DNA of 21,393 nucleotides from a virus. This document shows positions 10,019 to 20,656 of the stretch, in pieces (positions within the stretch are counted from its first letter, which is position 1; each line of letters opens with the position of its first letter). The notes under the pieces are model-generated. The model saw nothing but the letters and a program-made list of their open reading frames with translations, was not told where the DNA came from and ran no database searches. The stretch lies in the IMG/VR virus record IMGVR_UViG_3300042898_001207, positions 1 to 21,393 of that record, one strand, 5' to 3'. The position numbers and the translations under genes are program-made.

Positions 10019-11124
10019 AACAACTCAAACTGCGGCCATCCTCTGCCTCTCGCTGGATCGCCTGCCCAGCCTCTGCGCGGCTCTCAACGCTTGTGCCCTA
10101 CCAAGAGAGTGGGGAGGCCGCCAAGATTGGCACAGCCATTCACGCGCTGGCAGAAACCTGCTTTCAGCTTGACACCGACCCGATGAAGTTTGTCGGCCAG
10201 CAGGTCGAGGGCATCACCATGACAGAGGAAAACTGCGAGTTCGCCTTGGAGCACCTGCAAGCCATTTGGGCCATTCAGGACGAGCTGGGGCACGTCAAGG
10301 TGGAGCAGTTGTTCAAGCTGTACGACACACCCCAATTCAGCCTGCAAGGTACGGCCGATGTGGTTGGCTGGTCCATCACCAAAGAGAAACTCACCATCGC
10401 GGATCTGAAGACAGGGCGCGGTTATGTGGACGCTGACTCTGAACAGATGAAGATCTACGCCTTGGGCGCCATGAAGGCCAACAATTTGCGGGTCAAGGAA
10501 GTCGAGTTCCAGATCATCCAGCCGCACCATGGCGACAAACGCATCCACCGCATGAGTGCTGACGAGCTGGGCGTGTGGGAGACGCAGGTCATGTTGCCCG
10601 CCATTGAAGATGCTGTGAGTGACGCGCCCAGGTTTGCGCCATCAGAGTCGGCCTGTCAGTGGTGTCCCGCCAAGACTATTTGCAGTGCACAGAAGGCTTC
10701 ATTTGACGTGGTGGCGGCACAGCCAGACATCACAGCGCTCAAGAAAGATGACGTCAAACAAGTGATGTTGTCTCTCACACCGCAGCAGATCAGCGACATC
10801 TTGGACCGCGCACCGATGGTGGAGAAGTTTATTGACGCAGTGCGTGATCACGCATTGGCCGCCATGGAAAAGGACGGCATGGTCGTGCCTGGCTGGCAGT
10901 TGCAACCCAAACGCGCCAGCCGTAAGTGGCTTGATGAAGCCAATGCGCGTGCCGAATTGATCGCTGCGGGTTTATCCGATGTCGACATATTTGAATCAAA
11001 CCTAATTACTCCAGCGGCGGCAGAGAAACTGCTTCCAAAGGATCAAAGAGTTATCTTGGACGATCTCACGGCCAAGGTATCAAGTGGCTTGACGCTTGCG
11101 AGAGATCGCGGCTTGAGTCAATAA
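10015..11124 (+). CDS. Cas4/RecB-like PD-(D/E)XK nuclease (DUF2800-type)
   Basis: 369 residues. The opening RPSSASRWIACPAS with C17, then GTAIHALAE with H43, then LQGTADVVGW with D115, then IADLKTG with D130 and K132, and Q144 in SEQMKIYALGA give the PD-(D/E)XK nuclease series. C214-x2-C217-x5-C223 (CQWCPAKTIC) with C17 forms the four-Cys pattern of the Fe-S cluster in Cas4/AddB-type nucleases. I assign it to the DUF2800-like phage family from memory of its opening and core motifs. It probably trims double-stranded ends to make single strands for recombination, together with the SSB-like protein encoded next. The start is fixed by ATGA overlap with the previous gene. Confidence 0.85.
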   Translation: MKQLKLRPSSASRWIACPASARLSTLVPYQESGEAAKIGTAIHALAETCFQLDTDPMKFVGQQVEGITMTEENCEFALEHLQAIWAIQDELGHVKVEQLFKLYDTPQFSLQGTADVVGWSITKEKLTIADLKTGRGYVDADSEQMKIYALGAMKANNLRVKEVEFQIIQPHHGDKRIHRMSADELGVWETQVMLPAIEDAVSDAPRFAPSESACQWCPAKTICSAQKASFDVVAAQPDITALKKDDVKQVMLSLTPQQISDILDRAPMVEKFIDAVRDHALAAMEKDGMVVPGWQLQPKRASRKWLDEANARAELIAAGLSDVDIFESNLITPAAAEKLLPKDQRVILDDLTAKVSSGLTLARDRGLSQ

Positions 11125-11769: not shown

Positions 11770-11799
11770 GCCGAGGTGTGACAGCCTCGGCTTTTTTTT
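11770..11799 (+). terminator. Perfect intrinsic terminator
   Basis: GCCGAGG (11770-11776) and CCTCGGC (11785-11791) form a 7-pair perfect stem with an 8-base loop, followed by eight T at 11792-11799. It should end or strongly reduce transcription after the SSB-like gene. Confidence 0.92.
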
Positions 11800-11817
11800 C
11801 CTCATAAAAAACACAAC

Positions 11818-13311
11818 ATGAAATATCTATCACTTTGCAGTGGTATTGAGGCGGCAACAGTGGCATGGCATCCCCTTGGCTGGGAGGCTGTGGCCTATTC
11901 GGAGATCGAGAGATTCCCATCAGAGGTGCTGGCACATCACTATCCATCAACGCCAAACCTTGGCGACATGACGAAATTTAAGGAGTGGAATCTTGAGCAA
12001 TCAATTGGACTTCTGGTCGGAGGAACCCCCTGTCAGTCATTCTCAGTCGCAGGACTCAGAAAAGGATTGGATGACCCTCGTGGCAACCTCATGCTTACCT
12101 ATCTTGCCATTGCTGACAAATACAAACCCCAGTGGATTGTTTGGGAAAACGTCCCTGGTGTCCTGTCATCTAACGGAGGAAAAGATTTTGGAGTCTTCCT
12201 CGGGGCGTTGGGCGAACTCGGGTATGGGTTCGCCTACAGGGTTCTTGACGCTCAGTACTTCGGAGTGGCCCAAAGACGCCGCCGTGTGTTCGTTGTCGGA
12301 TACCTTGGAGACTGGCGACCTGCCGCAGCGGTTCTTTTTGAGCGCTACAGCCTGTCAGGGCATCCTGCGCCGAGCAGAGAAAAGAGGGAAGAAGTTGCCG
12401 GAACAATTGCAGCACGCTTTGGCATCAGTCGTAACAACCACGAAGAATGCGTAACATCAAGAGCAAAAGGTTTTTACGAATCTGGTTTTGCCCAATATCA
12501 ACAAGCAAATGTAGGTGGAACAATTAAGGCATCTGGTGGCGTTTTAGGTGGCGGTAGTGAAACTTTTTTAACGCAACCATCTTATGGCATACCAGGCAAT
12601 TGGATTGGACGCAAACCTGAGAACGGCGGCAATGCCACAGAGCCAATGTATGACATTGCGCCATGTCTCACAAAGACTGATCAGCATGGTGTGGCGCAAC
12701 CTATCGCATTCACTACTGAGCAAACGCCAAAGTACAACCATGATCAGGCGCTGACGCTGACAAAATCAGAATCAAAACACAATCAATGCGTGGCTGCGCC
12801 AATCGCATTCAGCGGATGTGATGACGGGATGGATACGCAAATCAATGTAACGCCAACCATGCGCGTTGCCGGTAATGCACAAGGTAATTTGGCGGTGGCA
12901 GTCGGCACTGATCTATACAACGGCGCAATCACAGGCGATGTGGCGGCAACCATGAGCACCGCTGGAAGCACATCATCAAAAACTGGCCCAACAGTTATGC
13001 AGCCAATGCCATTTGGCGTATCTGAAAAGCCTGATGTTGGTCATTGTCTGCGTTCTGGAGCTAGCAAAGCAGACAAACATGAAAGCACAACCTATGTAGC
13101 GCAATCCATGGCAGTACGCAGACTCACCCCTGTTGAATGCGAGCGCCTGCAAGGCTTCCCTGACAGCTACACAGACATCAAATCAAAGAACAAGCCAACG
13201 CCTGACGGCCCGCGCTACAAGGCATTGGGCAACAGCATGGCAGTGCCTGTCATGGCATGGATTGGGCAACGCATCGAACAAGTTGAGGCAATATGCAAGC
13301 AGAACAAATAG
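11818..13311 (+). CDS. DNA cytosine-5 methyltransferase (Dcm-type)
   Basis: 497 residues with the C5-methyltransferase motifs in order: motif I LCSGIEAATVAW (6-17), motif IV GGTPCQSF with catalytic C72, motif VI ENV (110-112), motif VIII QRRRR (152-156), motif IX RRLTPVECERLQGFP (434-448), motif X YKALGNSM (467-474). It transfers a methyl group from SAM to cytosine C5, most likely masking phage DNA from host restriction. Residues about 190-430 are a long target-recognition region with degenerate repeats (PIAF twice, PMPF once, and recurrent short L-T or T-M units). The start lies just after a strong terminator, has no clear ribosome-binding site and no visible promoter. A second gene lies in the +1 frame inside it. 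Confidence 0.93.
   Translation: MKYLSLCSGIEAATVAWHPLGWEAVAYSEIERFPSEVLAHHYPSTPNLGDMTKFKEWNLEQSIGLLVGGTPCQSFSVAGLRKGLDDPRGNLMLTYLAIADKYKPQWIVWENVPGVLSSNGGKDFGVFLGALGELGYGFAYRVLDAQYFGVAQRRRRVFVVGYLGDWRPAAAVLFERYSLSGHPAPSREKREEVAGTIAARFGISRNNHEECVTSRAKGFYESGFAQYQQANVGGTIKASGGVLGGGSETFLTQPSYGIPGNWIGRKPENGGNATEPMYDIAPCLTKTDQHGVAQPIAFTTEQTPKYNHDQALTLTKSESKHNQCVAAPIAFSGCDDGMDTQINVTPTMRVAGNAQGNLAVAVGTDLYNGAITGDVAATMSTAGSTSSKTGPTVMQPMPFGVSEKPDVGHCLRSGASKADKHESTTYVAQSMAVRRLTPVECERLQGFPDSYTDIKSKNKPTPDGPRYKALGNSMAVPVMAWIGQRIEQVEAICKQNK
11993..12454 (+). CDS. Overlapping gene in +1 frame inside the methyltransferase
   Basis: 153 residues, entirely inside the cytosine methyltransferase gene in another frame. 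TTG 11993 is preceded by a perfect AAGGAG (11980-11985) with 7-base spacing, better than the start of the host gene itself. The product opens MSNQLDFWSEEP, has a central W-x-N-S-G-M-G-S-P-T stretch, then EWPKDAAVCSLSDTLETGD, and ends with a likely basic helix, FLSATACQGILRRAEKRG followed by KLPEQLQHAL. I recall similar sequences annotated as separate hypothetical proteins beside Dcm-type phage methyltransferases; this memory could not be checked. The composition in this frame is not that of a random overlap. Function unknown. If it were a shadow, the ribosome-binding site and motif-like tail would be coincidence. Confidence 0.5.
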   Translation: MSNQLDFWSEEPPVSHSQSQDSEKDWMTLVATSCLPILPLLTNTNPSGLFGKTSLVSCHLTEEKILESSSGRWANSGMGSPTGFLTLSTSEWPKDAAVCSLSDTLETGDLPQRFFLSATACQGILRRAEKRGKKLPEQLQHALASVVTTTKNA

Positions 13312-17093: not shown

Positions 17094-18563
17094 ATGACCC
17101 ACCCCCCTACCCCCACTACGCAAGCCGCCAAGCCGCCCAAAAAAAAATTGGCCACAGCACCCGATAACCCATTTGTGGAATTCGTCAAGCTCTACAAAAA
17201 CAACCCTGTGCTCTTTGTCCGCGAGGTGTTAAACACTGAGCCTGATGGCTGGCAGATTGAGTTCCTTAATCACATTGCGGCAGGCAACCGCCGCATCTCG
17301 GTCAGATCCGGCCATGGCGTTGGGAAATCTACGGCCAGCGCTTGGGCGATGCTCTGGTATCTGTTCCTGCGCTTCCCTGTCAAGATCGTGGTGACGGCGC
17401 CAACATCCAGCCAGTTGTATGACGCCTTGTTTGCGGAGGTCAAGAGATGGGTGAAGGTGTTGCCGCCGATGTTGCAGGACCAGCTTGAGGTGAAGCAGGA
17501 CCGCATTGAGATGAAGAGCGCCAACAATGAGGCGTTTATCTCAGCCAGGACATCCAGAGCCGAGCAGCCCGAAGCCTTACAGGGGGTTCACAGTGACAAC
17601 GTGATGTTGGTGGCTGACGAGGCCAGCGGTATACCTGAGCAGGTATTTGAGGCTGCGGCTGGCTCGATGTCTGGACACGCTGCCGTCACTCTGTTGCTGG
17701 GCAACCCTGTGCGGTCCAGCGGTTTCTTCTTTGACACGCACAACCGTTTGACGGCTGACTGGATCACGATGAAGGTGTCTTGCGCCGACTCTCCGAGGGT
17801 CAGCGAAGCCTACATTGAGGAGATGAAGGCGCGTTACGGCGAGGAGAGTAATGCTTACAGGATTCGCGTCTTGGGTGAATTTCCGAGGAGTGACGACGAT
17901 ACCGTCATCCCGATGGAGTTGCTTGAATTGGCGACACAGCGGGATGTGGAAGCGAGTAAGCACGCACCTCTTGTGTGGGGCTTGGATGTGGCGCGGTTTG
18001 GCTCGGACAGGTCTGCTCTGTGCAAGCGGCAGGGGAATGCGGTGGTGGAGCCGATCAAGACGTGGAAGAACTTGGACCTGATGCAGCTCACAGGTGCAGT
18101 CGTGGCCGAGTATGAGATCCTCGTCCCCAGCCAGCGGCCACAAGAGATTCTGGTGGACTCGATTGGTTTGGGCGCCGGCGTTGTTGATCGGTTGAAAGAG
18201 TTGGGTTTGCCTGCTCGCGGCATCAACGTGGCCGAGTCACCGGCCATGGGCGGGACTTATCGGAATTTGAAGGCTGAACTGTGGCACAAGGCCAAGGCGT
18301 GGCTTGAGCAGCGGGACTGTCGGATGCCTAAAGATGAGGCGTTGATTGCTGAATTGGCGGCTGTGCGTTATTCGTTCACCTCCAGCGGGAAGATCCAGAT
18401 CGAGGGTAAGGATGAATTGAAGAAGCGCGGGATGTCGTCGCCGGACAGGGCTGATGCTTTTTGTTTGACGTTTGCCTCTGACGCGGTGATTGGGATGTAC
18501 GGCTCGGCTGCCTCGACCAAGTGGAATCAGCCACTGCGCAGAAACTTGCCACGGGTTGCATAA
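17094..18563 (+). CDS. terL: Terminase large subunit
   Basis: 489 residues. ATPase domain: Walker A GHGVGKST (73-80), Walker B VMLVADE with D175 and E176, and a coupling motif near LLGNPVRSSG. Nuclease domain of RNase H-like fold: GLDVARFGSDRS with D298, VDSIGLGAG with D355, and SPDRADAF with D451 and D454 as metal ligands. It cuts concatemers and drives DNA into the prohead. ATG 17094 is the only plausible start because an in-frame TAA lies 18 bases upstream; the ribosome-binding site is weak. The N-terminus is a Pro/Lys-rich, low-complexity stretch with nine A at 17139-17147. Confidence 0.96.
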   Translation: MTHPPTPTTQAAKPPKKKLATAPDNPFVEFVKLYKNNPVLFVREVLNTEPDGWQIEFLNHIAAGNRRISVRSGHGVGKSTASAWAMLWYLFLRFPVKIVVTAPTSSQLYDALFAEVKRWVKVLPPMLQDQLEVKQDRIEMKSANNEAFISARTSRAEQPEALQGVHSDNVMLVADEASGIPEQVFEAAAGSMSGHAAVTLLLGNPVRSSGFFFDTHNRLTADWITMKVSCADSPRVSEAYIEEMKARYGEESNAYRIRVLGEFPRSDDDTVIPMELLELATQRDVEASKHAPLVWGLDVARFGSDRSALCKRQGNAVVEPIKTWKNLDLMQLTGAVVAEYEILVPSQRPQEILVDSIGLGAGVVDRLKELGLPARGINVAESPAMGGTYRNLKAELWHKAKAWLEQRDCRMPKDEALIAELAAVRYSFTSSGKIQIEGKDELKKRGMSSPDRADAFCLTFASDAVIGMYGSAASTKWNQPLRRNLPRVA

Positions 18564-19429: not shown

Positions 19430-20124
19430 TTGCGCCGATTTGCATTTCAACAGTCAACGGCAAAGGTTTGCGGGTGATGCTCACAAGCATTGCCGAGTAC
19501 TGTCCCGAAGTGCCTGTCTATTTGCGCGGTCCAGAGTCCATTATTGGCGGCTATGACACTGACCTGAAGATCTTTGGCACGCCGCGCAATTTTGGCGAAG
19601 ATTACAACGACGTCATGGACCGCGCCTTTGCTGACGGCTTTGACTCTGTGATCTGCGCCAATGACGATATTGTCCTGACGCCCACCAGCTACAAGCATTT
19701 GCTGGAAGACGTGGCGCAGTTGAAGGCCGAGACTGGTGAGCCTGTTGGCTGGGTGGCGGCAAGATGTGACGCTGCGCCGCCTGTGCAAAATGTGCGAAGC
19801 AATCCCTTTGGGCAGGAGCTGCACTACTTCAAGTACCCATATGAAGACGCCATTGTCCCCATGGAGGTGCTGAGTCCCATCTTTTCATGGATTGGCCGCG
19901 ATGCGTGGGAGTGCTTCAAGTTTCCCCCTTTGAACTGGTACTCGGATGATGTGCACTGCGAGGATCTGCGTGCCGCTGGCTTTCATCATTACTTGAGCCG
20001 GTCTTATGTGCACCATGTTGGCAGCCAGACAATTGGCTTGAATGGCGAGAGACTGATCCAGCAGGCCGTGCCGTGGATTCGTAAGAACAGGCCGCAATAT
20101 GCAAAAGACTGGTTTGGTTCTTAA
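19426..20124 (+). CDS. Glycosyltransferase-like protein (GT-A fold)
   Basis: 232 residues from GTG 19426, which overlaps the previous stop. Features point to a family-2-like GT-A fold: PICISTVNGKGLRVML opening strand, NFGEDYNDVMDRAFADGFD helix, then VICANDDIVL with the metal/nucleotide-binding DD (80-81), and a second acidic cluster WYSDDVHCEDL (171-181) followed by SRSYVHHVGS, typical of the acceptor end. It would transfer a sugar, but donor and acceptor are unknown. It is paired with a methyltransferase gene (26-base overlap), suggesting a two-step modification. Confidence 0.7.
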   Translation: MIAPICISTVNGKGLRVMLTSIAEYCPEVPVYLRGPESIIGGYDTDLKIFGTPRNFGEDYNDVMDRAFADGFDSVICANDDIVLTPTSYKHLLEDVAQLKAETGEPVGWVAARCDAAPPVQNVRSNPFGQELHYFKYPYEDAIVPMEVLSPIFSWIGRDAWECFKFPPLNWYSDDVHCEDLRAAGFHHYLSRSYVHHVGSQTIGLNGERLIQQAVPWIRKNRPQYAKDWFGS

Positions 20125-20656
20125 TCTCGGCTCTGGCAAGGACGCTAGGGCTGACTGCATCAATGCTGACATCCGCAGTGATGTTGGCGCCGACTGGGTT
20201 GTCGATATTTCCAAACTGTCCTATGGCGAGGTGGTCGAGCACGGCGGCCAACAGATCAGCATCAAGCCTTTTTGCTTTGAAAAGATTCTGGCGTTTGACG
20301 TGCTGGAGCACATCCCCGACCTGGTGAAGGCCATGACCAACTGCCGCGACCTGCTGGTCGATGGCGGCGAGATGCACATCCATGTCCCCTATGAGTTGAG
20401 CCATGGCGCGTGGCAAGACCCGACACATGTGAGGGCGTTTAACGAGAAGTCTTGGATTTACTACTGCGACTGGGCGTGGTATTTGGGCTGGAAGGGTTCG
20501 CGGTTTGAGATGACTCATTTGGAAATGCGTCTCAGCGAGTATGGTGCGGGACTAAAATTGCCGCAAGATGAGGTGATGCGTTTGCCTCGCGCAGTTGAAT
20601 CCATGTATGTTGTTTTGAAGAAAGTGCCTTATGAAGACACCGGCGTGGCAGCGTAA
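20099..20656 (+). CDS. Class I SAM-dependent methyltransferase
   Basis: 185 residues. SAM motif I VLNLGSGKDARADCINADI (7-25) with N9, G11 and G13, acidic residue near 24, motif IV ILAFDVLEHIPD (63-74), and LVDGGEMHIHVP (86-97). The stretch HGAWQDPTHVRAFNEKSW resembles small-molecule or sugar methyltransferases found beside glycosyltransferases. It probably methylates a sugar or other small acceptor and not DNA, since DNA methyltransferase motifs are absent. It starts inside the glycosyltransferase gene and its end overlaps the next gene by 26 bases. Confidence 0.85.
   Translation: MQKTGLVLNLGSGKDARADCINADIRSDVGADWVVDISKLSYGEVVEHGGQQISIKPFCFEKILAFDVLEHIPDLVKAMTNCRDLLVDGGEMHIHVPYELSHGAWQDPTHVRAFNEKSWIYYCDWAWYLGWKGSRFEMTHLEMRLSEYGAGLKLPQDEVMRLPRAVESMYVVLKKVPYEDTGVAA

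Follow-up and report, generated by a model that had tools for sequence, protein, structure and literature searches.

A second gene is nested in the +1 frame of a phage C5-cytosine DNA methyltransferase (MTase) gene, and there is every indication that this frame codes for protein and that purifying selection has acted on it in many phage lineages, a conclusion inferred from sequence alone and without expression data. The pair lies in the window, i.e. the whole 21.4-kb stretch of DNA analysed, a virus record carrying phage genes for terminase subunits, a recombination exonuclease, a resolvase and a primase-helicase. The nested ORF is contained entirely within the MTase ORF (Table 1).

The outer protein keeps all of motifs I-X, with motifs I-VIII at residues 1-165 and motifs IX-X at residues 430-490, and has HhaI and HaeIII as PDB relatives. 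In its structural model residues 1-180 and the C-terminal helix are folded, and residues 181-430 are at a pLDDT of about 30-45. Cellular C5 enzymes recognise DNA with the region between motifs VIII and IX. The low pLDDT at 181-430 need not mean disorder and may stem from a region that is hard to align. As stated in the original prediction, made before any homologue was compared, the MTase start is weak: its ATG has no Shine-Dalgarno sequence (SD), being directly preceded by TTCCTCATAAAAAACACAAC, and the SD is also absent at the MTase start in 43/65 relatives. Only ~27 nt separate this ATG from the end of a terminator-like hairpin with T8 (11770-11818), which makes the origin of the MTase mRNA puzzling; by count such hairpins are not significant (one found, shuffle mean 0.9). 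Elsewhere in the window, antisense ORFs of 154-200 aa on the minus strand (10084-10548, 17577-18143 and 19916-20518), over the exonuclease, the terminase and a downstream gene, are probably due to chance.

Table 1. Positions of the features of the MTase locus in the window.
Feature	Position	Strand	Description
Intrinsic-terminator-like hairpin	11770..11791	+	Just 5' of the MTase start; 8-bp stem then T8
C5-cytosine DNA methyltransferase (outer gene)	11818..13311	+	497 aa; Pfam PF00145, E 2.6e-57, residues 1-487
TGA closing the +1 frame 5' of the nested start	11969..11971	+	Inside the GDM motif of the MTase
SD of the nested gene, AAGGAG	11980..11985	+	Within the conserved block AAATTTAAGGAG (11974-11985)
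Nested gene	11993..12454	+	+1 frame of the MTase; 153 codons + stop; TTG start; PHROG_16143, E 9.5e-10
C-terminal domain of the nested protein	12278..12451	+	Residues 96-153; three helices (predicted); basic, pI 9.3

The 153-residue ORF and the well-spaced AAGGAG before its TTG, both claimed beforehand, held, the spacer between AAGGAG and TTG being 7 nt (TGGAATC). In nearly all window-type relatives the +1 frame opens at MTase nt 154. The nested start shows a 6-nt SD match in 65/65 relatives, and TTG or ATG stands exactly at MTase nt 175 in 70 of the 71 window-clade loci found with the MTase query, despite the Ile/Leu/Phe to Asn switch entailed in the MTase. The block that includes the SD is almost frozen in this clade: K53 is AAA and K55 is AAG in 66/66 sequences each, while elsewhere in the same genes AAA and AAG are used at 57% and 43%. 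The adjoining Thr52 codon varies freely, all four codons being used. In the window clade the nested start codon and its SD are conserved at positions silent for the MTase. The start is less sharply defined in the other lineages (AAAGGAG upstream of TTG/ATG for MM1, GGAG 7 nt before ATG for P1), and an SD better at the nested start than at the MTase start is clear only in the window clade. Independent initiation, not frameshifting, is the probable mode of translation, as inferred without expression data.

A tblastn search with the nested product returned 150 phage records and 510 viral-contig places. Because such hits could be a mere shadow of MTase conservation, the main tests were restricted to relatives found with the MTase query. 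They were carried out on four MTase lineages (window-type, MM1-type, P1/Providencia-type and Omega/environmental-type), each of 60-66 sequences at <97% identity. Of these relatives, 242/252 have a stop-free +1 frame, against ~7 expected from synonymous resampling, in which codons are redrawn with the MTase protein held constant. In the order given above, the lineages have 60/66, 64/65, 57/60 and 61/61 open frames, for 0.33, 0.06, 5.8 and 0.55 expected. The six window-clade cases scored as not open reflect the mapping of the end of the test region, the ORF there being of ~153-188 codons. Since the sequences of a lineage are related to one another, these counts cannot be taken as independent events. 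No scored sequence has a +2 frame open across the whole overlap. For the window clade, the 4-fold synonymous divergence is 0.53 upstream of the ORF, 0.24 and then 0.11 within it, and again 0.54 downstream; the limits of the synonymous constraint are those of the nested ORF. Stops in the alternate frame of homologues, or a lack of synonymous constraint over the ORF, had been named in advance as refuting the idea of conserved dual coding. Neither refuted it, and the dual coding proved far more general than first guessed.

We then considered which of the two frames is selected. In this +1 overlap the third base of an MTase codon serves as the second base of a nested codon, and the first MTase base as the third nested one. 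Upstream of the nested ORF p3/p1 is 2.3-3.3, the usual MTase variation. At MTase codons ~161-200 it is 0.55 (0.49-0.61), 0.53 (0.46-0.61), 0.67 (0.58-0.77) and 0.60 (0.54-0.68) for the window, MM1, P1/Providencia and Omega/environmental lineages respectively (in brackets, intervals from a bootstrap over sequences). The amino-acid identities over the same codons are 0.82, 0.73, 0.63 and 0.58 in the +1 frame against 0.74, 0.65, 0.49 and 0.35 in the MTase frame, so that here the +1 frame is the better conserved in all four lineages. Over the catalytic core both frames are constrained: the MTase is as conserved as in the control region, the +1 identity is raised (0.72 against 0.49 in the window clade) and the 4-fold divergence lowered (0.24 against 0.53). 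The cellular E. coli-type dcm control displayed no reversal of p3/p1, which never fell below 1.24, and the +1 "shadows" of cellular MTases are mostly stop-filled and without the C-terminal domain.

The nested protein has an acidic N-terminal part (pI 4.6), and its N-terminal half is modelled by AlphaFold2 with low confidence. Three helices are predicted at residues 101-152, with a pLDDT of 92-98 for residues 111-150; the structured basic C-terminus expected at the outset held to this extent, as a prediction. A PDB sequence search found no relative of the nested protein, and the structure search of the PDB with its C-terminal domain gave a best E of 8.6 with Foldseek and a Z of 3.4 over 40 residues with VIA-align. 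This absence of a clear PDB fold match does not establish a new fold. Among 129 aligned nested proteins, 110 match the profile of PHROG_16143 ("DNA methyltransferase", 139 aa) and none matches PF00145; that of the window has no Pfam match at all. We consider the label of PHROG_16143 a mislabel of the nested +1 protein. No helix-turn-helix family and no known defence family matches the nested protein, and no HNH match was obtained for it or for the 129 aligned proteins. The N-terminal half bears a +1 shadow similarity to cellular MTases, partly inherited from the outer frame; the family should therefore be recognised by its C-terminal domain only. Aligned by hhalign to the segment following motif VIII of cellular MTases, the profile of this domain shows a weak similarity (P 6.6e-5, probability 64%), which is marginal and partly overlaps the motif VIII nucleotides.

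The nested ORF is present in MTases of phages P1, MM1 (Streptococcus) and Pan4 (cyanophage), of the Mycobacterium Omega-cluster and of Virus Rctr41k, as well as in those of Vibrio, Caulobacter, Roseobacter, Sinorhizobium, Providencia, Akkermansia, Lactococcus, Enterococcus and gut Coprococcus phages. In P1 (NC_005856.1) it lies at about 66728-67201, within dmt. In bacterial genomes 43/46 MTase loci have it. We infer from these sequences that the gene has been evolutionarily kept in hundreds of very different phages, P1 included. All matches to the +1 profile in the fetched loci are at +1 of an MTase, with one exception, which an HNH insert splits, and four uncertainly labelled matches (phages and a plasmid prophage) that were checked are all +1 nested (4/4). 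Neither the fetched loci nor those strong hits from the bacterial genome searches that were tested contained a free-standing copy. Three candidates were rejected: Thibault gp104 (81 aa), which sits in an MTase split by an HNH insert, L655 (77 aa), which is a decayed MTase fragment, and L615, a cellular-type MTase with weak in-frame resemblance. In one gammaproteobacterial MTase (L607, minus strand, plus-strand coordinates 1480-2709) the nested C-terminal domain follows motif X as an in-frame fusion, with a genome-wide profile E of 1.4e-7, and the +1 frame of this MTase is itself stop-filled. Therefore the domain exists without the overlap and beside an MTase. Further fusions of this kind were searched for and none was found, so that the fusion rests on a single locus.

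Insertions occur in several MTases. In Mycobacterium Omega-cluster phages (L561-L566) the nested ORF is interrupted where the MTase carries HNH-containing insertions, annotated or putative, and the C-terminal ~59 residues of this ORF stay open (Thibault gp104 in the annotation); one of these records states that the intron boundaries are undeterminable. L161 (2346-3905) has an HNH-like insert and a break of its MTase frame close to the PCQ motif, with the nested ORF intact, and in L162 (3064-3898) an HNH-type insert splits MTase and nested ORF alike.

PHROG_1008 ("DNA methyltransferase", 329 aa) is also a +1 ORF nested in a phage C5-MTase, of another subfamily, and was thus rejected as a stand-alone relative. 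In its loci (L480, minus strand, and L481-L560) a +1 ORF of ~300 aa covers most of the MTase, with a median of 309 of ~338 codons against 60 in the +2 frame. The 4-fold divergence is 0.63-0.68 near the N-terminus, 0.07-0.26 in the constrained part and 0.61 past the end. PHROG_1008 shares with the window-type protein the +1 nesting in a phage C5-MTase and a weak N-terminal profile similarity; it differs in being longer, in its MTase subfamily and in its C-terminal motif, LNP..SRWLMGLP, found in 75/80.

We favour, by a modest margin, an explanation in which the locus is a dual-coding (overprinted) gene pair and the nested protein would have an MTase-linked role, translation and function both being inferred. 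Ribosomes would enter the MTase mRNA a second time at the internal AAGGAG/TTG and produce a +1 protein of ~153 aa, made of a ~95-residue N-terminal part with a sequence largely tied to the MTase core and of a C-terminal domain of ~55 residues that is helical, basic and predicted to be folded. That this protein acts as a partner of the enclosing MTase is inferred without expression or activity data, and we would not wager on it either way. Of the roles suggested by the original prediction, none is resolved: partner fits best, on the basis of the constant nesting, the one in-frame fusion and the lack of a folded recognition region in the MTase model, and there is no evidence for or against an anti-restriction or regulatory role. 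The constant co-occurrence is only weak evidence of partnership, because a gene nested in another is bound to travel with it, whatever its role. The nested C-terminal domain might, together with the catalytic core, be a detached piece of the DNA-recognition region. This idea, like the dependence of activity or specificity on both proteins, is inferred and remains a mere possibility; it is favoured because the stretch of the outer MTase from motif VIII to motif IX is neither conserved nor confidently folded. A bolder reading, which can be entertained but no more, is that many phage C5-MTases, from at least 5 MTase lineages including phage P1 Dmt, are split enzymes in which the outer frame would provide catalysis and the +1 subunit DNA recognition.

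We cannot exclude that the nested protein is real and independent of the MTase, with a task in anti-restriction, anti-defence or host takeover, overprinting having merely arisen there. A nested location alone implies no shared task, overprinted phage genes being often functionally unrelated (a review is available, PMC8227390), and the absence of a match to known defence families leaves room for an unknown role. Against this conceivable alternative, an independent function should often escape via duplication and no free-standing copy was seen; the in-frame fusion to an MTase, in one locus, also speaks against it. Less plausible is that the nested protein regulates MTase expression, as a repressor or by translational control, its basic helix binding DNA or RNA. 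The basic helical C-terminal domain and, in the window clade, the much better SD of the nested start would suit such a regulator, but neither a helix-turn-helix family nor a PDB fold matches it, and the difference in SD is clear in that clade only.

Programmed frameshifting from the MTase would yield a variant enzyme in which motif VIII is followed by the +1 C-terminal domain, and would account for the +1 signal peaking right after this motif, where the recognition region of cellular enzymes begins. It seems most improbable: frameshifting needs neither an open, conserved +1 frame over MTase codons 60-160 nor conservation of the SD and of the start codon, yet all are present. Finally, an artefact of MTase codon use, of base composition or of a conserved DNA/RNA element can practically be dismissed. 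The +1 shadow similarity of the N-terminal half to cellular MTases is in its favour, but synonymous resampling, the codon-position reversal, the conserved start and SD, the confident fold, the in-frame fusion and the stops in cellular shadows all oppose it. A chance ORF or codon-usage artefact is rejected by the resampling, the codon-position tests and the cellular dcm control. Selection on a structural RNA or DNA element rather than on a protein is rejected by the +1 codon periodicity, since such an element would give none.

Genes for "orphan" MTases rank with the most frequently annotated genes of phages, and the enzymes are generally taken to consist of one protein. The presence of a second conserved protein would change the cloning, the expression and the interpretation of these genes. 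With hosts among proteobacteria, firmicutes, actinobacteria and cyanobacteria, the nested gene would rank among the most widespread same-strand nested genes of tailed phages, and family libraries carry overlapping genes under a wrong name. If the split-enzyme reading were true, one DNA stretch would evolve catalysis and specificity in two frames simultaneously. We found no published description of the MTase/nested pair in the literature searched; the coverage was partial, most subscription journals being outside it, and a prior description is not excluded.

The MM1 ORF14 of a Streptococcus phage belongs to the same nested +1 family (PHROG_16143 at 5e-82) and lies inside ORF13. Alternate-frame products annotated beside phage Dcm enzymes had been mentioned at the outset, and this held: they correspond to this pair and to PHROG_16143. 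Both MM1 ORFs are annotated "DNA methyltransferase", and PHROG_16143/MM1 ORF14 carries this label in databases despite having no C5-MTase Pfam match; no description of it as a dual-coding gene was found. The closest paper found concerns a different object, the hidden HNH endonuclease of phage ShiLan, an inserted mobile element of patchy distribution lying out of frame in a methylase (PMC11855218). It resembles the nested gene as an out-of-frame protein within a phage methylase gene; in contrast, the nested gene is no insertion, covers the conserved MTase catalytic core, is near-universal in its lineages and has no HNH match. The closest mechanistic analogue is the M.AquI type of C5 enzyme, in which two polypeptides come from overlapping genes, the second following the first and carrying motifs IX-X. 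In the window, by contrast, motifs I-X all remain in the outer protein, and the second gene is nested. The phiX174 gene E within D is an overprinted same-strand nested phage gene with an internal start (such genes are reviewed in PMC8227390). The arrangement is the same as in the MTase pair with different genes, and the MTase pair turns up repeatedly in phages whose hosts span many bacterial phyla.
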